Assembly: GCF_024300825.1 (NCBI RefSeq)
Contig: NZ_CP101323.1
Coordinates: forward strand, 1,178,001 to 1,242,000
Reading direction: 5' to 3'
DNA length: 64,000 nt
Source: Natronomonas gomsonensis
Lineage (GTDB): Archaea; Halobacteriota; Halobacteria; Halobacteriales; Haloarculaceae
Positions 6,912 through 47,730 of the stretch are shown piece by piece (the first letter of the stretch is position 1; every line of letters starts with the position of its first letter). The notes beneath the pieces are model-generated. The model searched no databases, had not been told where the DNA came from, and saw nothing but the letters and a program-made list of their open reading frames with translations. Position numbers and translations under genes: made by a program.

Positions 6912-7838
6912 TCACGCCGACCGCTCTCGTTTTAGTAGTTCGTCGATGGCGCTCCGTTCGGGCAGCGACGGCACGACACCGCGTTCGGTACAGGCGAGTG
7001 CGCCGGCGGCGATGCCGCGTTCGGTCGCCGCGAGGTGGCTCAACCCGTTCCCGCGGGCGACCGCGAAGGCGGCGTTGAACGCGTCGCCGGCGCCAGTCGT
7101 ATCGACCACGTCGACGGGAATCGGGTCAACCGCGGTGGCGTCGTCGTCGGTCACCACGAGCGCGCCGTCGGCTCCGAGCGTCACGACCACCGCGTCGGGC
7201 CCGCGGTCGAGAACGGCTCGTGCAGCCGTCTCCTCGTCGATATCGGCGTCGGGTTCGTGGCCCGCCAGCAGTCGGACCTCGCTTTCGTTCGGCGTGAGAA
7301 TCGACACGTCCTGCAGAAATACATCGGGGAGGTCCCGGTAGGGCGCGGGGTCGACGACGACTTCGGCCCCGGTCGCTGCTCCACATGACACCGCTTCGGT
7401 CACGGCACTAATCGGCGTCTCCAGCTGCGTCAACAGCACGTCACAGCCATCGATGACGCCTGCAGACTGGACCGTCTCGGCGTCGAGGTCGTCGTTCGCC
7501 CCGGAAGCGACGGCGATGGCGTTCTCACCGCTTTCTTCGACGTGGATGAGTGCGACACCGGTCGCAGTCTCGACCGACGAGACGGCGGCGTCGATGCCTT
7601 CCTCGGCCCACAGTTCACGTGCGTACTCGCCGAAGCGGTCGTCACCGACCGCGCCGACGAAGGCCACGTCGCCACCGCTGCGGGCGGCGGCGATGGCCTG
7701 ATTCGACCCTTTGCCACCGGCGTGTTCCTGAAAATCCTCGCCGGAGGCCGTCTCACCGGGAACCGGAAGCGACGGCACGGTAACCGACATGTCGTGGTTG
7801 TAGGAGCCGACGGCGGCGATTCGAGGGGGGTCAGTCAT
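6912..7838 (-). CDS. PfkB-family carbohydrate kinase (ribokinase-like)
   Basis: 308 residues starting MTDPPRIAAVGSYNHD. It shows the PfkB signature 1 region (GGKGSNQAIAAARSGGDV) and signature 2 (DTTGAGDAFNAAFAVARG) with the catalytic Asp and anion-hole glycines, plus TPNESE, which coordinates Mg-ATP. The arrangement resembles ribokinase (D-ribose + ATP to ribose 5-phosphate), but other sugars or nucleosides cannot be excluded. The frame stays open for about 350 bp upstream, but that sequence is the intergenic hairpin cluster and is not protein-like. Convergent with the MaoC gene. Confidence 0.9.
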   Translation of the reverse strand: MTDPPRIAAVGSYNHDMSVTVPSLPVPGETASGEDFQEHAGGKGSNQAIAAARSGGDVAFVGAVGDDRFGEYARELWAEEGIDAAVSSVETATGVALIHVEESGENAIAVASGANDDLDAETVQSAGVIDGCDVLLTQLETPISAVTEAVSCGAATGAEVVVDPAPYRDLPDVFLQDVSILTPNESEVRLLAGHEPDADIDEETAARAVLDRGPDAVVVTLGADGALVVTDDDATAVDPIPVDVVDTTGAGDAFNAAFAVARGNGLSHLAATERGIAAGALACTERGVVPSLPERSAIDELLKRERSA

Positions 7839-7884
7839 ACCGAACCGACAGCGGCGGCGCTGAAAAGCGTGATGACGGGACTCG

Positions 7885-8144
7885 GGATGCGAGCATCCGC
7901 GAGCGAAGCGAGCGGTTTTCTGAAAAGAGCGCGAAGCGATCTTTTCGCATACTACAGGAGCTCTGCTCCTGTGTAGCTCGCAAATCTTCGATTTGCTTAC
8001 TGACGAAAGACGCCCACGGCGTCTTTCGAACCACACCGGCGACGAGGCCGAAGGCCGAGTCGCCGGATGGTTTTTCCCCAAGTTTTTGCGGGAGGGGGTT
8101 CCCCGCAGCGACCGAAGGGAGCGAGGAAACCCCTCTCGTAAAAA
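7885..8144. repeat. Cluster of short-loop perfect hairpins (intergenic)
   Basis: The 314-bp space between the sugar kinase and the next gene is nearly filled with consecutive inverted repeats: 7885-7889/7894-7898 (5 bp), 7922-7928/7940-7946 (7 bp), 7955-7961/7965-7971 (7 bp, loop TCT), 7980-7986/7990-7996 (7 bp, loop TTC), 8004-8014/8018-8028 (11 bp, loop CAC), 8036-8043/8059-8066 (8 bp enclosing GGCC-GAA-GGCC), and an outer 8083-8097/8130-8144 (15 positions, 13 Watson-Crick and two G-T). Motifs such as GCGAGCGAAGCGAGCGG also occur. It may be a mobile-like intergenic repeat or a composite terminator; function is unknown. Confidence 0.7.
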
Positions 8145-8152
8145 GTGGGTTG

Positions 8153-8515
8153 TTAGTACTCTTCGTAGGCCAGATTCATCACCCAATGCGAGAAGGCGTC
8201 GCTTTGGGCGTCGGCCTCCTCGTCGCCGACGAACGGCGAGAGCATGTCGCCGGCCATCAGCAGCGAGAAGTCGAGGTCCTTCGGGTCGCGAACCGGCGTG
8301 ATGTAGTAGGTGTTGTGCCCCTCATAGACGGTGTCCTCGCGTTCGACGAGGCCCTTCTCCTCAAGGGAGTCGATGATACGGCTCCCCTTCCGGGAGTCGA
8401 CGTCGAGTTCCTTCCAGAAGTCGCTCTGGTGGATGCCACCGGTCGACCGAATCAGTTCGAGCCCCGCTCGTTCGGCCTCCGTGAGCTCCTGCTCCTCGTC
8501 GGCGGTGGTACTCAT
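8153..8515 (-). CDS. Small winged-helix regulator-like protein
   Basis: 120 residues. The segment ELTEAERAGLELIRSTGGIHQSDFWKEL-DVDSRKGSRIIDSLEEKGLV (read with the usual break) is a typical winged HTH in which SRKGSRIIDSL is the recognition helix, followed by the wing REDTVYEGHNTYYITP. The acidic C-terminal 45 residues (FSLLMAGDMLSPFVG onward) are a helical extension of unknown role. This is a haloarchaeal DNA-binding protein, MarR/TrmB-like in outline; the target is unknown. A TATA box 26 bp before the ATG points to a leaderless transcript. Confidence 0.82.
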   Translation of the reverse strand: MSTTADEEQELTEAERAGLELIRSTGGIHQSDFWKELDVDSRKGSRIIDSLEEKGLVEREDTVYEGHNTYYITPVRDPKDLDFSLLMAGDMLSPFVGDEEADAQSDAFSHWVMNLAYEEY

Positions 8516-8540
8516 TGTTCTTCCCTCCGCCGGCGAGCCG

Positions 8541-8546
8541 TTTAAA
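8541..8546 (-). promoter_or_regulatory. TATA box for the small winged-helix gene
   Basis: TTTAAA centred about 28 bp upstream of the ATG at 8515, within the last codons of the upstream NRDE gene, so the regulator can be transcribed independently of that gene. Confidence 0.6.
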
Positions 8547-9273
8547 TCCTGCTTTCGGTCGGTTCGTACGGCGTCTCACACGGCGGGCCGTCGGCGAACT
8601 CGAAGACACGGTCCCCGCCGAGTCGGACGAGCGAGGACGACCGGGTTCCGAAGCCGTCGCCGTGGATGCAGGCGCCGAACTCGTGGTCGCCGAGTATCTC
8701 GCCGGCCCGACGCGTCCACGCTTCGGCTGTTTCGCCGTCTCTCGGCTGGAGTTCCGCCCGGATGCGGTCGGCGTTGTTCGCCTGCTGGCGTCCCGCTTCG
8801 GGTCGCATCGGTGGGACGAACCACTCGCCGTCGAAGCCGACGTTGACGACGATGTGGACGCCAGGGTCGAGTTCAGTCACTCGGCGCACGTCGCCCCACT
8901 CGATGAGTAGGGCATCTTCGCCGTCGGCCGCCAGCAGATGGAGGGGGGCGTACTCCCTGGCGTCGAGTTCGGCTTCCACGCGGTCGATAGCGGCGCTTGC
9001 GGTCGGTTCCGAAAGCGCGTCGTCGACGAGGAGGCCACGGGAACGGTCGCCTTCGCCCTCGACCCACCGGTTCGTGATGGCGACGAGAACGCCGTCTTCG
9101 TTGTACCCCAGCCACGTCCCGCCGGCCTCTTCGTCACGAGGGGCGACGATTCGGGGGTCACCCTCCCGGACCACAGGCGGCGTCGACGGGCGTCCGAACG
9201 CCTCGTCGCGGTTGGCCGCGACACAGACGGGTGCTTCCTCGAAGACCTGCCACGCGACGATGAGTGTACACAC
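8542..9273 (-). CDS. NRDE/TANGO2-family protein
   Basis: 243 residues beginning MCTLIVAW and containing the diagnostic NRDE tetrad in VCVAANRDEAFGRPS, followed by the conserved GGTWLGYNEDGVLVAITNR block. The N-terminal Met-Cys suggests an Ntn-hydrolase-like fold with Cys2 exposed after Met removal, as seen in related families. TANGO2 proteins are implicated in haem and lipid handling in eukaryotes; the archaeal role is not established. It is downstream of the menaquinone operon on the same strand, but a 42-bp gap and unrelated function argue against a pathway role. Confidence 0.88.
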   Translation of the reverse strand: MCTLIVAWQVFEEAPVCVAANRDEAFGRPSTPPVVREGDPRIVAPRDEEAGGTWLGYNEDGVLVAITNRWVEGEGDRSRGLLVDDALSEPTASAAIDRVEAELDAREYAPLHLLAADGEDALLIEWGDVRRVTELDPGVHIVVNVGFDGEWFVPPMRPEAGRQQANNADRIRAELQPRDGETAEAWTRRAGEILGDHEFGACIHGDGFGTRSSSLVRLGGDRVFEFADGPPCETPYEPTESRI

Positions 9274-9315
9274 GGGAGGCGGTAGGTCCGCCTCGAAAAT
9301 AAAGCCGCCTCCGGT

Positions 9316-10833
9316 TCAGGCATCGTCGGCCGCTTCCAGGGTCGTCCGAACGGCCTCGCGGTCGACGGTTCCCGAGGCCGTCCGCGGCAGCGAGTCGGCG
9401 AATCCGACCGTCCGGGGGAGTTTGTAGCCGGCGAGGTGTCCCCGACAGTGCTCTCGGAGGGCGTCGGCGGCCACCTCCGTACCGTCGGCGAGGACGACCA
9501 ATGCAGCGACGCGTTCGCCCCACTCCTCGTCGTCGAGGCCGACGACGGCCGCGTCGTCGACGGCCGGGTGGTCTCGGAGCGCGGCGACGACCTCGCTTGG
9601 GTCGACGTTCTCCCCGCCGGTGACGATTGTGTCGTCGACGCGGGCGTGGACGTACACCCGGCCGGCCTCGTCGCGGTGGCCCACGTCGCCGGTTCGGAGT
9701 CCGCCGTTGGTGAACGCGTCCCGCGTCGCCGCGTCGTCGAGATACCCCGGCGTCACCATCGGCCCGGCGACGACGAGTTCGCCCGTCTCACCGGGGCGAC
9801 ACACCGCGCCGGCGTCGTCGACGACGGTCACCTCCGCGAACATGAGCGGGTTGCCGACCGTATCGGGGTGTCGGCGGGACTGTTCCGGCGTCGCGGTGGC
9901 GATTTGGGAGGCCGCCTCCGTCATTCCGTAGGTGGGAGCGACCGGAACACCCCGGTCGTGGGCGCGAGCGAGCAATTCGGGCGGACAGGCGGCCCCGCCC
10001 AAGAGTACAAACCGGCAATCGGGAAACTCGCCGGCGTCGAGCATCCGGTCGAGCATCGTCGGGACCAGCGAGACGCAAGTGGCTCCGGCCTGCCGCATCA
10101 CCTCGGCGGTCCCCTCGGGGTCGAAACCACGTTGGACCGACAGAGAAGAGCCGTACAGCACCGACCGGTAGACCGGTGCCAACCCGCCCATGTGATACAT
10201 CGGAAGCGTGACGTGCCAACAGTCGTCGCCGCCGACGCCGAGGCGGAAGGCGGAGGCGGTCGCACTCGCCAGTACGTTCGCCAGCGTGAGCACGACCCCC
10301 TTCGGGTCGCCCGTCGTCCCCGAGGTAAACATGACGACCAGCGGGTGGTCGGGTTCCCACTCCGGGAGGTCGAACGGCTCCGGCTGGATGCTTTCGACCC
10401 GTTCGGCGCCAGCGGCCGGCTCGTCGAAGGACAGAACAGTGGTGTCGTCCTGTTCGGTCGCTTCGACCGCATCGATAACCGCCCGCTCGGTCCCCGACTC
10501 AGAGGCCACGGCCGCAGGGTCGATTCGTTCGAGCCGGACGGCGAGTTCCTCAGCAGTCAGCCGTGCGTTGAGCGGAACGAGTACGGCTCCGAGTCGCTGT
10601 GCGGCGTGGACGGCTTCGAGGAACTCGACTCGGGTCTCGGCACACACGGCGAGGGCGTCGTCGACGCCGACGCCGCGGGCGGCGAGGCGGCCGGCCAACA
10701 CCTCGACCCGCTCGTTGAGGTCCGCGTAACTCCGGGTAGTCGCCACGTCGCCACCGGCGGCTACTGCGGTCGCCGCGGGCGTCCCGTTCGCTCGTGTGGC
10801 CAGCCAATCTCGCATCTCCGTCGCCCGATTCAC
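9316..10833 (-). CDS. menE: o-Succinylbenzoate-CoA ligase
   Basis: 505-residue ANL-superfamily acyl-CoA synthetase. The P-loop-like motif MFTSGTTGDPKGV (near residue 165), the ATP-binding PTYGMTEAASQ, the YLDDAATRDAF / GGLRTGDVG region with the ribose-binding Asp, and the hinge and C-terminal segments (VTGGENVDPSEV) are all present. It should activate o-succinylbenzoate to its CoA ester in menaquinone synthesis. The start overlaps the end of menC by four bases (menC is transcribed first), so menA-menC-menE form a tight operon. The genomic context makes MenE much more likely than a generic fatty-acid ligase. Confidence 0.93.
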   Translation of the reverse strand: MNRATEMRDWLATRANGTPAATAVAAGGDVATTRSYADLNERVEVLAGRLAARGVGVDDALAVCAETRVEFLEAVHAAQRLGAVLVPLNARLTAEELAVRLERIDPAAVASESGTERAVIDAVEATEQDDTTVLSFDEPAAGAERVESIQPEPFDLPEWEPDHPLVVMFTSGTTGDPKGVVLTLANVLASATASAFRLGVGGDDCWHVTLPMYHMGGLAPVYRSVLYGSSLSVQRGFDPEGTAEVMRQAGATCVSLVPTMLDRMLDAGEFPDCRFVLLGGAACPPELLARAHDRGVPVAPTYGMTEAASQIATATPEQSRRHPDTVGNPLMFAEVTVVDDAGAVCRPGETGELVVAGPMVTPGYLDDAATRDAFTNGGLRTGDVGHRDEAGRVYVHARVDDTIVTGGENVDPSEVVAALRDHPAVDDAAVVGLDDEEWGERVAALVVLADGTEVAADALREHCRGHLAGYKLPRTVGFADSLPRTASGTVDREAVRTTLEAADDA

Positions 10834-11828
10834 GATGGGGGAATATTGCCTTTTCCCTGTGGAACGGCCATCGACCCCTCGTCGGCGACCGCCATATCCG
10901 GTCGAAGGTCCTCGGCGAGCAACCCACCGGTCGCCAGCCCACAGGGCCGGACATCGGGTATCGACGCCGCGAGATGGACCGCACCAGCGCGGGCGACCGC
11001 ACCATCAATGGTCGTCGTGATGATGGGGTCGACGCCCCCAGCGCGCGCCTGTAGAGCGATTTCTCGCGCTCGGTCGACACCACCCAGCGCCATCGGCTTA
11101 CAGACGACGACATCTGCCGCATCCGCTTCGAGGATAGCGTCGAGACCATGTTCGAGAAGTCCCTCGTCGAGGCCGACTCCAACCTCGCCACCGCGGAGTG
11201 CGGCGTGTCCGGTGAGGGTGTCGGCTGACAGCGGCTGTTCGACGAAGGACACGTCGAACCCCGCGAACGCCTCGAAGGCGCGTTCGGCGGTCGGTTGGTC
11301 CCAGGCACCGTTGGCGTCCGCCCGGAGTTCGACATCGGGACAGGCGTCCCGAACCGCCTCGATTCGCTCGATGTCCGCCGTGAGCGACCGAGCACCGACT
11401 TTCACTTTCAGCGCCGGGTAGCCGTCGGCGACGGCCTGTTCGGCGGCCGTGGCAGTGTCGGCTGGCGTTGCGTCGCCGAGAGTCGCGTTGACCGGGACGC
11501 TCTCGACGCCCTTCTCGCCGCCGAGATAGCGGTACAGCGGCTCCTCTGCCGTGCGCGCACGAGCATCCAGTACCGCGAGCGAGACGCCGTGTCGCGCCGC
11601 CGGCGTTTCGCCGAGGGAGACGAGAGCCTCCTCTGGGTCCGAGACGGATTCGAGCGCGGCGGCACACGCAGAGCGCGATTCGGTCCAGCCGGCAAGCGGT
11701 GTCGCCTCTCCGACGCCCGGAATGCCGTCGAGTTCGAGTTTCACGAGGAACCCGTCCCGGCGCTCGATACTGCCGGCGGCGGTGTCCAGCGGGCGGGCCA
11801 ACGGGAGTGAGAATCGGTCAACTCTCAT
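10830..11828 (-). CDS. menC: o-Succinylbenzoate synthase
   Basis: 332-residue enolase-superfamily protein of the muconate-lactonising type. Catalytic features visible in order are KVKVG (Lys near residue 140), ELRADANGAWD (Asp), FVEQPL (Glu), the Asp/Glu in GVGLDEGL and the second Lys in VVCKPMALGG, which is the complete set for OSBS-like enzymes. It dehydrates SHCHC to o-succinylbenzoate. It overlaps menA by four bases upstream and menE by four bases downstream. Dipeptide epimerase is the main alternative for this fold but is unlikely between menA and menE. Confidence 0.93.
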   Translation of the reverse strand: MRVDRFSLPLARPLDTAAGSIERRDGFLVKLELDGIPGVGEATPLAGWTESRSACAAALESVSDPEEALVSLGETPAARHGVSLAVLDARARTAEEPLYRYLGGEKGVESVPVNATLGDATPADTATAAEQAVADGYPALKVKVGARSLTADIERIEAVRDACPDVELRADANGAWDQPTAERAFEAFAGFDVSFVEQPLSADTLTGHAALRGGEVGVGLDEGLLEHGLDAILEADAADVVVCKPMALGGVDRAREIALQARAGGVDPIITTTIDGAVARAGAVHLAASIPDVRPCGLATGGLLAEDLRPDMAVADEGSMAVPQGKGNIPPS

Positions 11829-33506: not shown

Positions 33507-35324
33507 TCACAGCCGAACGGTGAGTTGCGCGCCGCCGCCGTCGCTTTCACCGATATCGAGCGACCAGCCGTGGCCCTCGACGACCCGCTGGATGATGGCG
33601 AGACCGAACCCCGTCCCGTCTTCTTTCGTCGTGTAGCCGGGTTCGAGCACCGCCTCGCGCTTCTCCGGGGGGATACCCTCACCGTCGTCAGCGATGTAGA
33701 ATCCCGTTCCGTCGTCGAGCGCACCCACGGTGACCGTCACGTCCGACCCGCCGTGGGTGACTGCGTTCGCGAAGGCGTTTTCGAGCAGTTGGTTGAGTCG
33801 GTCGGCGTCGGCCTCGAAGCAGAGGTCCGACTCGATTCGGAGCCCCGCATCAGCGGTGGCGACGAGCGACCACGATTCCTCGGCGCTCTCCCGGAGCGAA
33901 ACCGTACTCGCTTCACCCACCTCTCGGCCCTCCGAAGCCAACCAGAGCACGTCGTCGATGATGCGGTCCATGTGCGTCAGCGAGCGGCGTATCTCGTGTA
34001 AGTCGTCGTCGTCGCCGATGCGCTCTTCGAGGATATCGAGGTAGCCGAGCGCGACCGAAAGCGGGTTCCGAAGGTCGTGGGAAACCACCCCGGCGAACTC
34101 ATCGAGCCGTTCGTTCTTCCGTTCGAGTGCGCGGTAGTTTTCGATTCGGTCGATGACGGCCTCCAGGTTCGTCGCGAACACTCGCGCGATGCCCACGTCG
34201 GTGTCGTCGAACGAGGCGGTCGTCGCGACGTGTATCAGCCCGTAGTCCCCGACCGGAAGGAGCAACTCCTCGACGGCGTCGCTCGTGGCCGAGTGGGAGA
34301 CGCCGGAGCGGTGTTGTGGGTCGCTGCTCTCGAAGGAAATCCACCGCCGGTCCTCGGTCGACTCGATAGCGGACGGTTCGAAGCCCTCGAAGGATTCGCG
34401 GGCGGTCTTTGCCGCCGGGACGAGTGTGCCCTCGTCGTCGGTCGTACAGTACACGGAGACGAGTTCGGCATCGAGCAGTTCGTCGAGTTGGTCGCGCGCG
34501 CGGTCGGCGATGTGGTCCGGCGAGGCGAGCTCGAGCCACTCGCGGGTCGCGTCGTGGAGTGCTCGGAGACGGCGCCGCCACGCCCGCCTGTCGGTGATGT
34601 CGGCGTTGACCGCGACGAAGCGGACGATTTCGCCGTCGACGTGAATCGGGGCGATGGTCTGATTGACAACGTAGCGGCTGCCGTCCTTGCGCTCATTGAC
34701 GATTTCGCTCTGCCAGGCGTTGCCGTCCAGAATCGTCTCCCAGAGGTTCTCGTAGAACGCGTCGTCGTGTTCGCCGGATTTCAGTATCGCCGGCCGGGCA
34801 CCCAGCGCCTCCGCGGCACTGTAACCCGTCGTCGCCTCGAAGGCCGGATTGACGTACCGTATCGTCCCGTCGGTGTCGGTGATGTAGATGGAGTGACCAG
34901 CCTGTTCGACAGCGCGTTTGAAACTCCGCAGTCGGATGTCTGCGCTTCCGGCCGCTTGCTCGGTGAGCACTCGCTCGACGGCTTCGAGGAGCCGTTCGAC
35001 CCGGGCGTCGGCGTCGGAAGGGACGTACTCGACGCCGTCGGTGCGAAGCGCTCGGACCGCGAGGCGCTCGCTGCCCTCCGATGGAAACAGCACCACCGGA
35101 ACGTCGGTGGCTTCCGTCCGAAGGTCGGAGACGACCGTCATCCCATCACCGTCGGGGAGAGGCGTCGCACAGACCACGCAGTCGACCGGCCGCTCTCGGA
35201 GCGCCCCGCGGGCCGCCGACAGCGACTGCTCGAAGAGCACGCGAGCCGAAATGTGCTCCTCGAGGGACGAACACCCCTGTCGAAGCGACTCGCACCCACC
35301 CACACACAGAACCGTCTGAGACAC
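33507..35324 (-). CDS. Histidine kinase with degenerate receiver, PAS and GAF domains
   Basis: 605 residues from a GTG start (VSQTVLCVGG). Domain order: receiver-like (1-120), PAS (about 140-255: YITDTDGTIRYVNPAFEATTGYS region), GAF (about 270-400), HisKA H-box VVSHDLRNPLSVALGYLD and HATPase (NAFANAVTHGG, IADDGEGIP, GTGFGLAIIQRVVEGHGW). In the receiver the phospho-Asp position reads CVVCATPLPD, so the acceptor Asp is Ala, and the distal Lys is replaced by Ser (LFPSEGSE): it is probably a pseudo-receiver. The GTG is chosen because a TATA box overlaps the upstream ATG at 35351 and lies about 29 bp before this GTG. Confidence 0.9.
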   Translation of the reverse strand: MSQTVLCVGGCESLRQGCSSLEEHISARVLFEQSLSAARGALRERPVDCVVCATPLPDGDGMTVVSDLRTEATDVPVVLFPSEGSERLAVRALRTDGVEYVPSDADARVERLLEAVERVLTEQAAGSADIRLRSFKRAVEQAGHSIYITDTDGTIRYVNPAFEATTGYSAAEALGARPAILKSGEHDDAFYENLWETILDGNAWQSEIVNERKDGSRYVVNQTIAPIHVDGEIVRFVAVNADITDRRAWRRRLRALHDATREWLELASPDHIADRARDQLDELLDAELVSVYCTTDDEGTLVPAAKTARESFEGFEPSAIESTEDRRWISFESSDPQHRSGVSHSATSDAVEELLLPVGDYGLIHVATTASFDDTDVGIARVFATNLEAVIDRIENYRALERKNERLDEFAGVVSHDLRNPLSVALGYLDILEERIGDDDDLHEIRRSLTHMDRIIDDVLWLASEGREVGEASTVSLRESAEESWSLVATADAGLRIESDLCFEADADRLNQLLENAFANAVTHGGSDVTVTVGALDDGTGFYIADDGEGIPPEKREAVLEPGYTTKEDGTGFGLAIIQRVVEGHGWSLDIGESDGGGAQLTVRL

Positions 35325-35349
35325 GTTGGTAACACTTGCCACCTCACAC

Positions 35350-35357
35350 ATATAAAA
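35350..35357 (-). promoter_or_regulatory. TATA box that fixes the kinase start
   Basis: Minus-strand TTTTATAT centred about 29 bp before the GTG at 35324. It physically overlaps the first available ATG, so that ATG would not be in the mRNA. Confidence 0.65.
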
Positions 35358-35438
35358 AACCGGACCATATCGATAGCGAAACTTCGACGTTCGGTACGAC
35401 CCCACAACTCAAGACGCCGGCCGGCAGAGTGACCGACA

Positions 35439-41993: not shown

Positions 41994-42164
41994 GGTCACT
42001 CGGAGGGAGGGCCCTCGTCGTCTTAGTTGGTGGTGTCCGACCACCTCGTGAGGGTCGGTTCGGTTTGAAACGGTGTCAATCAGATAGAGTAGGAGTGAAA
42101 CAGCGGCTATCTGACACGGTTGGGTGTCGGGGGGAATCGAGGGGTCCCTCTGAAGCCTCCGCTT

Positions 42165-42173
42165 TTTTTATAC
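42165..42173 (+). promoter_or_regulatory. TATA box for the LOV histidine kinase
   Basis: TTTTTATAC centred about 26 bp before the ATG at 42195; it identifies that ATG as the start of a leaderless message rather than the longer open frame beginning at 42120. Confidence 0.7.
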
Positions 42174-42194
42174 AAGCGAAAGAGTTCTCTCACT

Positions 42195-43985
42195 ATGGTC
42201 ACAGCACCTGCCGGCACGGACCAAAGCGAGTCCCTCGACCGAGAGGCACTCATCCCCGATGTCGGTAGCGAGGTATCTATCCTTCACATCGAGGATGACG
42301 CCGCTTTCGCTGAGTTAGTCTCGAACTTCCTGCAACGAGAGCGTGACTCCTTCGAGGTCTTGACCGAAACGGACCCTCGGGATGGCATCAAACGGGTCGA
42401 AAACGAGCGCATCGATTGTGTCATCTCGGACTACGATATGCCCGAAATGAATGGGTTGGGTGTCTTGAAAGAAGTCAGGAAAAAGCACCCACAACTCCCG
42501 TTCATACTCTTTACGGGAAAAGGCAGCGAGGAAATCGCCAGCGAAGCGATATCAGCGGGAGTCACCGACTATCTACAGAAACGCAAAGGAACCGAACAGT
42601 ACGGGATGCTTGCCAATCGCGTCGAGCAGGCCGTCGCTCGCCGGCGCGCCGAAAAGCAGGTCGAACGCGGGTTCAACGCTATCGAAACCGCAAACGAGGG
42701 AATCAGCCTATTGAACGACACCGGCGAATTCATCTACGTCAACGAGGCCTACGCGAAAATCGTCGGCTACGAGCGAGATGAATTGCTCGGCGAACACTTC
42801 GAGACGATTTACCCGGACAACGACATCGATTTCGTGTACGAAGAGATGATTCCCGAGGCAAAGGAGGGTGAGTGGACAGGAACGACGGTTTACGAGCGGA
42901 AGGATGGTGACGTGATTACCGTCGAGCATTCGATTTCCTACACCACGGGTGATACGATGATTTGTACTATCTCCGAGAGCGATGAGGAGGTGCGCGAAGC
43001 GCTGTCGCTCCGCGAACAGGCGATGGACGAAGCCCCGATTGGAATCGTCATCACCGATGCCGACCGTGAGGACAACCCAATCATCTACGCAAATGACGGG
43101 TTCGCGGAGGTGACGGGATACTCACGCGAGGAAACGGTAGGGCGGAACTGTCGCTTCCTGCAGGGTGAAGAGACTCGGGAGGAACCGATAGCCGAAATGC
43201 GAGACGCCATCGACGCCGCGGAGTCAGTTGCCGTCGAACTGCGTAATTATCGGAAGAACGGAGAGATGTTCTGGAACCGGGTGACGATTGCGCCACTGTT
43301 CGACGACAGTGGAGACGTCGATTACTTCGTCGGCTGTCAGGAGGACGTGACCGCGCGCAGAGAGATAATGGCGGAGTACGGCTCGCTTGGCTCAGTTCTC
43401 TCTCACGATTTGCAGAATCCGCTGCAGACCGTTCGTGGACGGCTGGAACTGGCTATCGAGACTGGCAACATTGACCACGTCGAGGAGGCGATACCGTCGG
43501 TGGACCGGCTGGAGGCGTTGACCAATGACATCGCGAGCGTGTTACAAACCGGGACTATCACCCCGAAACGCGATTACGTTAGTGTTGAGAGAGCCGCCGA
43601 GTCGGTTTGGGAGTCCCGTGAAGATTGTCACGACGAGAGTTCCCTCGAGGTTGTCGATTCCCCGGCGGTGACTGGCAATCGTGGCGCGATTGGCCGGATG
43701 ATGGATAACCTGATTGGTAACTCAATCGAACACGGTGAACCACCGGTCACGATTCGAGTTGGCGGCTTAGAGGACGGATTCTACGTTGAAGACGATGGTC
43801 CCGGAATTCCCGAGGGGAACCGCGAGAAGGTGTTCGAGCAGGGGTTCTCGACGAAAGAGAGCGGCGACGAAACCGGCGTGGGGATGACGAGCGTTCGGCA
43901 AATCGTATTAGCACACGGCTGGCGGATTACTATCACGGATAGCGAAGCGTTGGGCGGCGTCCGATTCGAGATTCGGACGGAGTGA
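42195..43985 (+). CDS. Receiver-PAS-LOV histidine kinase (probable blue-light sensor)
   Basis: 596 residues. Order: receiver (about 18-140, phospho-Asp in CVISDYDMPEMNG, Lys in YLQKRKG), PAS (about 155-270), a LOV-type PAS (about 275-390), then H-box LSHDLQNPLQTVRG and HATPase (NLIGNSIEHGE, VEDDGPGIPEGN, TGVGMTSVRQIVLAHGW). The LOV domain has GRNCRFLQG with the photoactive Cys at residue 319, the flavin-binding ELRNYRKNGEMFWNRVTIAP segment and the signalling Gln in VGCQEDVT, so FMN photochemistry is expected. A true receiver at the N-terminus suggests it is embedded in a phosphorelay. Composition is slightly less GC-rich than the core genes. Confidence 0.92.
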   Translation: MVTAPAGTDQSESLDREALIPDVGSEVSILHIEDDAAFAELVSNFLQRERDSFEVLTETDPRDGIKRVENERIDCVISDYDMPEMNGLGVLKEVRKKHPQLPFILFTGKGSEEIASEAISAGVTDYLQKRKGTEQYGMLANRVEQAVARRRAEKQVERGFNAIETANEGISLLNDTGEFIYVNEAYAKIVGYERDELLGEHFETIYPDNDIDFVYEEMIPEAKEGEWTGTTVYERKDGDVITVEHSISYTTGDTMICTISESDEEVREALSLREQAMDEAPIGIVITDADREDNPIIYANDGFAEVTGYSREETVGRNCRFLQGEETREEPIAEMRDAIDAAESVAVELRNYRKNGEMFWNRVTIAPLFDDSGDVDYFVGCQEDVTARREIMAEYGSLGSVLSHDLQNPLQTVRGRLELAIETGNIDHVEEAIPSVDRLEALTNDIASVLQTGTITPKRDYVSVERAAESVWESREDCHDESSLEVVDSPAVTGNRGAIGRMMDNLIGNSIEHGEPPVTIRVGGLEDGFYVEDDGPGIPEGNREKVFEQGFSTKESGDETGVGMTSVRQIVLAHGWRITITDSEALGGVRFEIRTE

Positions 43986-44244
43986 AACCGACCGGCTGAA
44001 AAGCCGTAACCATAGCTCCCTTATGGGAAAGTGATTCGGCTGTCGCTGTCTCGGCCGGCATATACTGATAGACGTGGGGGAACGCATCTGAAGTGGTTTC
44101 GGGGATACCGCTTCCGACCAGCAAGACGATTCGATGTCCGGCGGGAATCGCTGACGCAGTCGGGAAGCAACACATCGTCGGGCGGTATCACGTCGTAGGT
44201 CGCTTCGCTCCGTTCGAATGCTCCGTGTCGGCAGGGGGCGGGTC

Positions 44245-45162
44245 CTACTCGACGTTATGTTCGTCAAGCCGGTCGCGAACTATCGATTCGAGACCGCGGT
44301 CAGCCTCGATAGCAGTGATGAGTGCTCGGAGTAGACGATTGTACGCGGCTGGGCGCTCAATCATCGCGACGTGACCGGTGCGTTCCATCCGGCAGAACAC
44401 GCTTTCGGGGAGCCGACTCGCAGTCCCGCGTGCCACATCGACCGGAACGATTCCGTCGGCAGGGCCGTGGATGACGAGCGTGGGTACATCGACTCGCTCG
44501 ATGTCGGGGCGTCCGTCGTATCCCCAAAACGCCTCGGTAACGGTCGTCCACGCCGAGCGGTGTCGTGGCAAGGGGTTCGACTGCAGGAAGTCCTCAACGA
44601 CGGCCTCGTCTGTTCCCTCGTGAAAGCCAACGCTGTAGGCCAACTGGCGAATGAGCGCGTCGCTCGTTGGGAGGCGATACAGGCGCAAAGCCAGAAACAG
44701 TCGTAACAGCGGCTTCTCCCATGCCGGCGTGAGGTCGTGGTCACCACCAGCGTGCAGAACGAGGCCAGCCGTCGGGTGGCGTTTGGCATACTCCAGAGCG
44801 ATGGCTGTGCCGTAACTGTGGCCGTGGACGATGGGTCGGTCAATATCGAGCGTATCGAGCAGATGCCTGAGGTCGGCGACGTGCCCGGCGAGCGACTGTT
44901 CGGGACGCGTCGTGGAGTTCCCGTTTCCGGCCAGTGCATACGTCACCAATTCCTGCTCGCCCTCGAACGCATCCAGTTGCGGATACGGGTTCCACAGCGA
45001 GCCGAGGCCACCGTGAACGAACACGACCGCTGGACTCGAACCACCCATATGAACCGCCTCTAACTCGACCGATTCGGAAACCTGCACCCGACGCGAATCC
45101 GGTATCGAGTTCCGGACGTCAGCGAATCGGACGTACCCGGGAGGGAACGGTGACGTGGACAT
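44245..45162 (-). CDS. Alpha/beta hydrolase
   Basis: 305 residues from MSTSPFPPGYVRF. The oxyanion segment FVHGGLGSLWNPYP, the nucleophile elbow HGHSYGTAIALEY (Ser), the acid Asp in VIHGPADGIVPVD and the His in ERTGHVAMIERPAAY give the full triad. It hydrolyses an ester, lactone or related bond; specificity is not visible. It lies 7 bp downstream of the amidohydrolase gene on the same strand, so the two are probably co-transcribed and may act on the same compound. Codon use is less GC-biased than the chromosome core. Confidence 0.88.
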   Translation of the reverse strand: MSTSPFPPGYVRFADVRNSIPDSRRVQVSESVELEAVHMGGSSPAVVFVHGGLGSLWNPYPQLDAFEGEQELVTYALAGNGNSTTRPEQSLAGHVADLRHLLDTLDIDRPIVHGHSYGTAIALEYAKRHPTAGLVLHAGGDHDLTPAWEKPLLRLFLALRLYRLPTSDALIRQLAYSVGFHEGTDEAVVEDFLQSNPLPRHRSAWTTVTEAFWGYDGRPDIERVDVPTLVIHGPADGIVPVDVARGTASRLPESVFCRMERTGHVAMIERPAAYNRLLRALITAIEADRGLESIVRDRLDEHNVE

Positions 45163-45169
45163 AGGTGGT

Positions 45170-46636
45170 TCAGAAGGAGAACTTGTCACGCACCGATTGA
45201 AGAGCGAGCCGAGAGAGCAGGCGAGCGGGGCCACGCTTGGGTAGTTCTCGAATCGTTTCGGTTGAGCCCGGTGGATTACCACCGCCGATGTGAAGCTCCC
45301 AGCCCGTCTCGTCGGCAAAGCGGTCGACCGCCGCTTCTACGTCTTTCTGTACCGCTTCGGCGTCCATCGTCATCGGTGTCCCATCCCGCATCACGAGTTC
45401 CCCGTCGACGATAACCGTCTCCACGTCGCCCGGCGCGGCGTTGTTCACGACGTGCGCAGGTACGTTCGTCAACGGTGTGAACTTCGGCTTGTCCACGTCG
45501 AGAAGGACGACATCCGCCCGCTTGCCCGGTTCGATGCTTCCGATCTCGTCGCCGACACCCAACGCACGTGCGCCTTCGATTGTCAGCATTCGCACCAGTT
45601 CCATCGACGAGTATTGGCCGGTCGTCCGTTTGACGTTGGCCGCAAGGCGGGCCTGTCGGGCCTCGCCGAACATGCTGTAGGAGTCGTGCCAGTAGTGGTC
45701 GTCGATGCCCAGCCCGACGTCGACACCCGCATCCCGTAGTTCCGGGACGGGCGTCCACTGCATCTCGGCGTCCGGGTTCCAGTAGCAGAACACCGACGGG
45801 CAGTGTGCCACGGACGCGTCCGCCTCGGAAATTCGTTCGATATCCGCCTCGTCGGTGACGCGGAAGTGAGCCGCAACCAGGCGTTCGTCAAGCACTCCAA
45901 CATCATTGAGGAGGCCGAGCGAGTCCGGCCCCCCGTTTGCTCGTGCCATCGTATTGCTCGCTTCGAGTTCGAGCAGGTGAGTGTGGACGAGCAAGTCAGG
46001 GTACTCAGCAGCGAGATTGGCGGTACGCTCCCACAACTCGCGCGTACACGACCAGTCGTCGTGTGGGCAAATCGTCGCCCGGATTCGTCCATCGTAGGTA
46101 TCGTGGTGCGTTTCGATGAACTCGCGAGCGCGGTCGAACTGCTCGTCGACGGGAACGTCCCAGAAGAGGTCCGTGACGGTCGGGCCGAAGAAGCCACGGA
46201 GGCCCGCTTCGCCAAACGTCTCCGCGCCCGCAGTTGGGCGCACGTCCATCGAATTAATCGTCGTGACACCTCCGAGGAGGAAATTCAGGGCGGCGAGTTC
46301 GTAACCGGCCTCAGCCAGATAGTCAAAGTCACCCTCGCCGAGACGACCAAAGATGGCCGTCATACTGCCCATCATCTCCAGCAAATCGAGGTCGCTGAAC
46401 GCACCGATTAGCGGCGTCAGTTCGAGGTGGGTGTGGGCGTTAACCAGCCCCGGCATCACCAGTCTCCCGTCGCCGTCAATCGTGTGCGTGGCTTCAATCT
46501 CTCCATCGCCGTCCTCGGACGCTCGTACCTCAGTAATGCGGCCGTCGTCGATGAGTACCGTCCCGCGTTCGTACAGACAGTTGCGCTCGTCGACCGTGAG
46601 AACGAGCGCATTGGAGATGGCAATGTCAACGGTCAT
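45170..46636 (-). CDS. Amidohydrolase-superfamily deaminase/chlorohydrolase
   Basis: 488 residues from MTVDIAISNALVLTVDERN. The metal ligands are in LVNAHTHLELTPL (HxH), LLVHTHLLELEAS (His), VAAHFRVTDEADI (His) and GLGIDDHYWHDSYSMFGEAR (Asp), typical of the AtzA/TrzN/SAH-deaminase subfamily, with the C-terminal beta-sandwich (VIVDGELVMRDG). Likely a guanine-, SAH- or triazine-type deaminase or hydrolase; the substrate is not determined. First gene of a two-gene unit with the alpha/beta hydrolase, 134 bp from the integrase remnant. Confidence 0.9.
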   Translation of the reverse strand: MTVDIAISNALVLTVDERNCLYERGTVLIDDGRITEVRASEDGDGEIEATHTIDGDGRLVMPGLVNAHTHLELTPLIGAFSDLDLLEMMGSMTAIFGRLGEGDFDYLAEAGYELAALNFLLGGVTTINSMDVRPTAGAETFGEAGLRGFFGPTVTDLFWDVPVDEQFDRAREFIETHHDTYDGRIRATICPHDDWSCTRELWERTANLAAEYPDLLVHTHLLELEASNTMARANGGPDSLGLLNDVGVLDERLVAAHFRVTDEADIERISEADASVAHCPSVFCYWNPDAEMQWTPVPELRDAGVDVGLGIDDHYWHDSYSMFGEARQARLAANVKRTTGQYSSMELVRMLTIEGARALGVGDEIGSIEPGKRADVVLLDVDKPKFTPLTNVPAHVVNNAAPGDVETVIVDGELVMRDGTPMTMDAEAVQKDVEAAVDRFADETGWELHIGGGNPPGSTETIRELPKRGPARLLSRLALQSVRDKFSF

Positions 46637-46770
46637 CCCGTGTCGTCCTTGAGGTGGCAGTCGCGTCAATGCTTGGTAATACGGTTTCGTTATTCTCCTT
46701 GACTCCGGGTCAATCGAGGCTGGAATCGGTTGATGTAGAACAGTCACTGATTGCTTGAGACAGCGTTGTG

Positions 46771-47515
46771 CTACGGGGAAGAATCACGTAGTGATGGACG
46801 AATGACGATATTCCATGCATCAAGGTCCAGCCAACTCATCTTGCTCCTCTCCACCTCGATGGGTCGAAACCCCGTGTCGATACTCATCTTGACGAGATTC
46901 GGGATTTTTCCAGTTATCGACCTTCTCCCAATCGGCAGGTTTCACTTCGTTTTTTGGCTTCCCGAGGCTCATGGAGGTGTACCCTTTCCATCGGTCACGA
47001 CCTTCGGGAGAGAGGTCGTTATATCCGGATATCTGCTGGTAGTTCAAGCTCGCACTGTAGACCTTCTCGATTTCCTCCTCGGAGAACACGTCCTTGATGT
47101 TCCGCTTGCCGTTCGTACTCGGTATTTCGTACTTCGGCTCCCATTCCGGAGGATCTTCATCGAGGTGTCGCTGATACTTGAATAGCCGCTTAATGGCCTT
47201 CTGTGTCCCCGATGCGTGGCTCGCAGAACGGTCATCATCGAGCAGAATTCCCTCCATGTATTCGTTCGCTTCGGAGTGGGTAAACGAGGTTTTGAACTCG
47301 TTGTGATTCCACACGAAGCGTGCGAAGTGGTCCGTTCTGTATAGCGTGTCTTTCGCTGTGTGTTCGGAGTATCCTTCGAGGGATTTCGGATTCTTTCCGC
47401 GCTCTAACAGCCAGTTAGCGAAGCCTCGGCGGGTGACTTCCCACGTCTGGAGTTGTTTGTCACGCAGTACTTCGGCGTCGTCTCGCGTTGTCAGCGGCAG
47501 GTTTTCGAGGTCCAT
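46771..47515 (-). pseudogene. Frameshifted, truncated tyrosine recombinase (integrase)
   Basis: From MDLENLPLTTRDD the first about 200 residues are the core-binding domain of a haloarchaeal site-specific recombinase (QTWEVTRRGFANWLLERG, then KPADWEKVDNWK). At a run of five T on the plus strand (46905-46909; AAAAA in the gene) an extra base shifts the frame; in the next frame the protein continues IPNLVKMSIDTGFRPIEVE, which contains the first catalytic Arg (FRPIEV). It then ends at 46771 soon after, so the rest of the catalytic domain (H-x-x-R and Tyr) is missing. The gene is 140 bp from the 3' end of tRNA-Glu, the usual position of an integrase after tRNA integration. A non-functional remnant. 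Confidence 0.8.
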
Positions 47516-47655
47516 TTGTAAATTTTCCCTGACACGTTACAAAACCGCCAGAGGGTGGCGGAGTAGAGTTTACACCCTACTTTCTTGTCCTAACGTGTTC
47601 TGATTGACGCGGAGAGAAAACAGCCGAAAACCGCGATACGTGAGCGGGTTTTGAA

Positions 47656-47730
47656 TGCTCCGTCAGGGATTCGAACCCTGGTCCTTGCCGTGAGAGGGCA
47701 AGATGATTGGCCGGACTACACCAACGGAGC
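47656..47730 (-). tRNA. tRNA-Glu (CTC)
   Basis: 75-nt cloverleaf on the minus strand. Acceptor stem GCTCCGT pairs with ACGGAGC, discriminator A, D-arm with the TGTAGTCCGG segment, anticodon stem TTGCC/GGCAA with loop CTCTCAC (anticodon CTC), variable loop and a T-arm (CAGGG, TTCGAAT, CCCTG). CCA is not encoded. It is intron-free. The integrase remnant lies just downstream of its 3' end, consistent with this tRNA being the attachment site of the former element. Confidence 0.96.

Follow-up and report, generated by a model that had tools for sequence, protein, structure and literature searches.

A probable blue-light sensor histidine kinase gene beside tRNA-Glu in Natronomonas gomsonensis

A gene at 42195..43985 (+) of the 64,000-nucleotide stretch of Natronomonas gomsonensis DNA analysed here (the window) appeared to encode a LOV-domain histidine kinase. 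The locus raises the question of whether the product senses blue light and of how its gene came to lie next to a tRNA. The sequence is best explained, with a probability that we put at roughly 0.8, by a cytosolic blue-light sensor histidine kinase whose gene was probably acquired horizontally beside tRNA-Glu. The open reading frame begins with ATG and runs uninterrupted for 596 amino acids in the order REC-PAS-LOV-HisKA-HATPase. The protein is acidic (pI 4.36), soluble and free of transmembrane segments. An alternative TTG start 75 nt upstream of the ATG at 42195 would lengthen the frame; the ATG was favored because of the spacing of a TATA-like element, TTTTTTTATAC (42163..42173, +; read directly from the sequence), about 22-25 nt 5' of it, and because the close orthologs aligned had no counterpart to the N-terminal extension. 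The position of this element suggests a leaderless transcript. A sigma-70 promoter scan of the region was uninformative for archaea.

The LOV domain covers residues 273-387 (43011..43355, +), as placed by PAS_9, by alignments to YtvA and oat phototropin LOV2 (AsLOV2), and by a fold match to 3t50. The initial annotation had reported a LOV signature with numbered residues, and reading and aligning those residues bore it out: Cys319 (codon 43149-43151) lies in GRNCRFLQG, Asn351 in NYRKNG, Asn361 in FWNR and Gln382 in VGCQEDVT, and all four, with Gln323, align with YtvA and AsLOV2. The PAS_9 profile search proposed as a check returned two stretches (2.1e-38 for the whole protein, Pfam scan), and a published prokaryotic LOV search pattern matched the 596-aa protein once, at the Cys319 site. 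In a PDB sequence search, the domain matched YtvA best (1.4e-32) and AsLOV2 at 9.2e-32. Single LOV crystal structures fit the predicted fold at 0.8-1.0 Å with TM-scores of 0.92-0.95, the Brucella LOV domain 3t50 giving 0.95 and 0.8 Å. The sequence and predicted fold thus show the PAS/LOV fold of a LOV photoreceptor, its adduct cysteine in GxNCRFLQ, and the amides that contact the flavin and signal (Gln, Asn, Asn, Gln). By analogy with ALovD-1, a characterised haloarchaeal LOV domain that binds FMN and photocycles from 446 to 390 nm in up to 3 M salt (PMC12202551), this domain would bind FMN and photocycle from 447 to 390 nm.

Two further features of the LOV sequences were noted. Cys381 (43335-43337) immediately precedes the signalling Gln382 (VGCQ), at a position that is Phe, Ile, Val, Thr or similar in the other LOV domains of a 46-sequence set. 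The residue before the signalling Gln in LOV dimers should face the outer side of the sheet. A redox or dimer role for Cys381 is conceivable. Variant motifs (GQNCRLLQG, GQDCRFLQG and GHNCRILQG) occur among the relatives L060 (G169), L061/L062 (G398, G247) and L065/L066 (G339, G312); the cysteine is kept in these, and neighboring flavin-pocket residues differ.

The receiver occupies residues 29-131 (42279..42587, +; Pfam PF00072 Response_reg, 9.5e-23). It has the acidic cluster Glu33/Asp34/Asp35, the phospho-acceptor Asp80 region (the aspartates of SDYDMP), Thr107 and Lys129, which agrees with the initial statement that Asp and Lys were kept and gives the domain the residues expected of a receiver (two acidic residues, a phospho-acceptor Asp, a Thr or Ser, and a Lys). 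D34, D79, D81, T107 and K129 were unchanged in an alignment of five relatives. The protein had also been described as carrying its own receiver; this holds in that the receiver is in the same chain, but such adjacency does not imply phosphotransfer to it. An ordinary PAS domain without the LOV cysteine motif follows at about residues 165-262 (42687..42980, +), as indicated by the second PAS stretch, alignment and fold elements.

The kinase core was likewise upheld. Its HATPase_c domain (residues 497-594; 43683..43976, +; PF02518, 1.4e-16) has an N box (NLIGNSIEH), a G1 box (DDGPGIP) and a G2 box (GVGM). The HisKA/DHp dimerization helices (residues 400-446; 43392..43532, +; PF00512) scored 25.4 bits against a cut-off of 26.9, 1.5 bits short, and contain an H box with the phospho-acceptor His404 (SHDLQNPL), in which H404, D405 and P409 were unchanged across five aligned relatives. 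When LOV and kinase were searched jointly against the PDB, only YF1 (4gcz) passed the threshold of 1e-33, at 7e-39. The full-length AlphaFold2 model was of moderate quality (pLDDT 71.6, pTM 0.37), with reasonable domains and an arrangement between domains that was not; a fold search with it ranked 4gcz first and other LOV kinases next. The Pfam scan of the 596-aa protein found no HTH family, so this is not a Bat-type LOV-HTH regulator. The protein is also not a member of the NCBIfam families BluLightHisKinLov (bacterial blue-light histidine kinase; 149 against a cut-off of 450 bits, with the LOV part alone aligned) or YtvA (181.7 against 250 bits).

From the sequence and from the characterised haloarchaeal domain we infer flavin binding, a photocycle and light control of the kinase; any polarity or target of such control would be inferred likewise. 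In the LOV family, the steps from blue light through the FMN-Cys adduct and the Gln flip to a shifted LOV dimer are established (PMC6798134). In the window protein, FMN in the LOV domain would take up blue light and form an adduct with Cys319, protonation of N5 would flip Gln382, and the LOV dimer interface would then shift. A short coiled-coil helix may relay this shift to His404 on the DHp helices, where it would alter the balance of kinase and phosphatase activities. The receiver (Asp80) and the PAS domain could provide a second input, dependent on phosphorylation or a ligand; alternatively, the receiver itself may accept phosphate from its own kinase. Counted against a light-controlled kinase were the sub-threshold HisKA score, the moderate full-length model and the fact that no cognate response regulator was found beside the gene.

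The candidate transmission element is the 22-residue linker from Gln382 to His404 (43341..43403, +), defined by counting the spacing among relatives. This spacing is 22 residues in 7 proteins (the window LOV kinase included), 29 in 16 and 28 in one. The two main spacings lie exactly seven residues, or one coiled-coil heptad, apart, and this fits signal transmission through a helical coiled coil. The seven short-linker proteins, including that of the window, all belong to one 11-member clade; shared ancestry makes independent events few, and probably there was one gain or loss. In YF1 the same linker has 38 residues, as counted from the alignment. Because the difference between 38 and 22 is not divisible by seven, a prediction of light-signal polarity from YF1 was dropped, and we make no on/off prediction for the effect of light on the kinase.

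YF1, an engineered fusion of the YtvA LOV domain and the FixL kinase, is nevertheless the best match in both sequence and fold, sharing the LOV-helix-DHp-ATPase order; it lacks the receiver and extra PAS domain that the window protein has. Brucella LOV-HK is, like the window protein, a natural LOV histidine kinase with a closely superposable LOV domain, whereas its order is LOV-PAS-HK without the N-terminal receiver. ALovD-1 and the 28 LOV proteins of Lake Diamante (PMC12202551) are also acidic PAS/REC histidine kinases with the adduct cysteine, and their group A shares the FWN-Arg motif. Compared by description, the FLQ motif of ALovD-1 carries Tyr at the place where the window LOV keeps Phe, and ALovD-1 is the second of three PAS domains whereas the LOV of the window protein directly precedes the kinase core. 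Bat-type LOV-GAF-HTH regulators have a related LOV domain; the window protein, by contrast, has a C-terminal kinase and lacks an HTH domain. The archaeal LOV-kinases that Losi and co-workers catalogued in 2014 (PMC4844311) similarly join a haloarchaeal LOV to a two-component kinase with RR, GAF and PAS units, and the window protein matches their LOV search pattern. The accessible part of that article gives no analysis of function, mobility or linkers, and the window protein itself was not identified in it.

LOV kinases had been said to be less often reported in archaea, a statement that a survey of the order qualifies. We searched genomes with a 26-nt back-translated GxNCRFLQG pattern, using the reversed pattern as a control. 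Of the 392 genomes of the order, 297 carry the motif, as do 268 of the 345 good ones, and the control had no match in any genome listed; rarity was therefore rejected, and LOV is the rule in this order. The Losi catalogue agrees, with 167 archaeal LOV proteins in 82 species by 2014, those lacking an HTH being described as two-component LOV-kinases with RR, GAF and PAS units (PMC4844311). The Lake Diamante study of 2025 gives the same picture for 28 sequences, one domain having been characterised (PMC12202551). The window LOV kinase is thus a further member of a known, common haloarchaeal group; its short linker and its mobility add modestly to what has been described for that group.

The host genome (3.65 Mb, two contigs) had four matches to the pattern and none to the reversed control. 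These correspond to the window gene, C1:190022 and C1:1804049 (both with kinase-like C termini) and C1:1986591, which resembles the Bat form. About 7 kb from the LOV kinase, at 33507-35405 (-), the window encodes another soluble histidine kinase, which has a receiver together with PAS and GAF-like regions. A recent bacterial origin of the window LOV was unsupported, as 29 haloarchaeal and 17 bacterial LOV domains separated in a tree, with a support (SH-aLRT 90) that is not conclusive.

The distribution of close relatives is patchy. The other members of the 11-member clade are 58-65% identical to the window protein, the nearest ortholog at 65%, and a search of other genomes turned up such full-length relatives (approximately 58-65%) in just 10, which belong to families f1, f4, f6, f7 and f12 and include Haloarcula japonica. 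In the 19 other Natronomonas genomes searched there was no clade member, the best full-length match being 44%. The clade is fully supported in the tree, and its internal order departs from taxonomy: G040 (f6) is the partner of G098 (f4), and the two f12 members lie on different branches. The GC of several ortholog loci (0.51-0.57) is low by haloarchaeal standards. No conserved partner gene or response regulator was found near the 10 orthologs, only varied histidine kinases, and no cognate response regulator was found beside the window LOV kinase.

The initial report of an accessory segment adjoining a tRNA was confirmed against two sister genomes (G015 and G001), which are about 90% identical to the window in DNA around the site. 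Synteny extends to 42043 and picks up again from 47653-47655, where a tRNA-Glu (CTC; 47656..47730, -) has its 3' end; this tRNA is syntenic in both sisters, and a slot is left at 42044..47652. In both sisters the slot holds other genes and no LOV kinase (L053 in G015, 7973-11355; L054 in G001, 7529-11023); the genes differ and include ORFs of about 265 and 434 aa. Judged from these contents, the tRNA-Glu slot is a hot spot of integration or exchange. In the window, it also contains an alpha/beta hydrolase gene (44245..45318, -), an amidohydrolase gene (45170..46747, -) whose ORF overlaps its neighbor so that the true starts are uncertain, and a truncated tyrosine recombinase (integrase) of 231 aa (46820..47515, -). 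The recombinase aligns with the first 206 or so residues of relatives that are mostly 300-420 aa long, and its catalytic half is missing; in one 382-aa relative the catalytic motifs were visible by eye. Copies of the amidohydrolase at G000:C2:6759-8228 on the small second contig (78%) and at G000:C1:1714371-1715831 on the chromosome (66%) hint at exchange with a plasmid-like replicon. A search for attachment-site repeats gave 13 of 14 bases in common between 44213-44226 and 47650-47663, with the 3' end of tRNA-Glu falling inside the second copy; random anchors equalled this in 14 of 400 trials, and the repeat is possibly, on weak evidence, a worn attachment site. A tRNA-linked location as a general rule was rejected, as most ortholog loci had no tRNA within the stretches fetched.

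Horizontal gain of the LOV kinase is likely because its clade is scattered, other Natronomonas lack it and the slot is filled differently in two sisters. Base composition was also counted toward transfer, the GC of the gene being 0.566 compared to 0.641 for the window and its GC3 0.68 compared to 0.78-0.87 in four flanking genes. On the simplest reading of the sequences, the gene was probably gained horizontally into the tRNA-Glu slot. This setting, an accessory slot with a truncated integrase, would also suit a decaying passenger of a defunct integrated element that has lost its function. Such decay is very improbable, as the 596-aa frame is intact, the catalytic and flavin residues are kept, and the motifs are conserved with the nearest ortholog at 65% identity.

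Other explanations accept a working protein and differ as to its main signal. The LOV domain may only tune a kinase whose principal input is phosphorylation of the receiver by another kinase. The genome holds many kinases with receivers of this type, and at four clade loci other histidine kinases lie approximately 0.7 kb or less from the gene. However, the type of neighbor changes from genome to genome and the window gene has none next to it, which leaves no evident fixed partner, and we consider this explanation unlikely. Conserved LOV chemistry could also serve redox instead of light, the flavin mainly reporting redox state or oxygen (N5 is protonated in the same way in reduced flavin) and any response to light being incidental. 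Chemical reduction of LOV flavins is possible, and their semiquinone gives the same kind of signal as the adduct (PMC6798134); a redox-sensing role is described for Bat, a related haloarchaeal regulator (PMC4844311). A pure redox sensor needs no adduct cysteine, yet this residue is kept in all clade members aligned, and a redox role is accordingly more improbable still than control through the receiver. A blue-light sensor histidine kinase remains the explanation that we favor.

The literature surveyed contained no archaeal LOV kinase tied to a cellular response. It is possible, if doubtful, that the clade is mobile, its haloarchaeal LOV kinases being carried from one family to another as the cargo of hot spots for integration, and that its short-linker subgroup forms a natural experiment in archaea on the effect of linker length on the sign or gain of light control. 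One species has the LOV kinase and two sisters, about 90% identical in the surrounding DNA, lack it, so that its presence and absence are directly comparable; the short- and long-linker orthologs also make it possible to test, outside bacteria, the rule of coiled-coil coupling.
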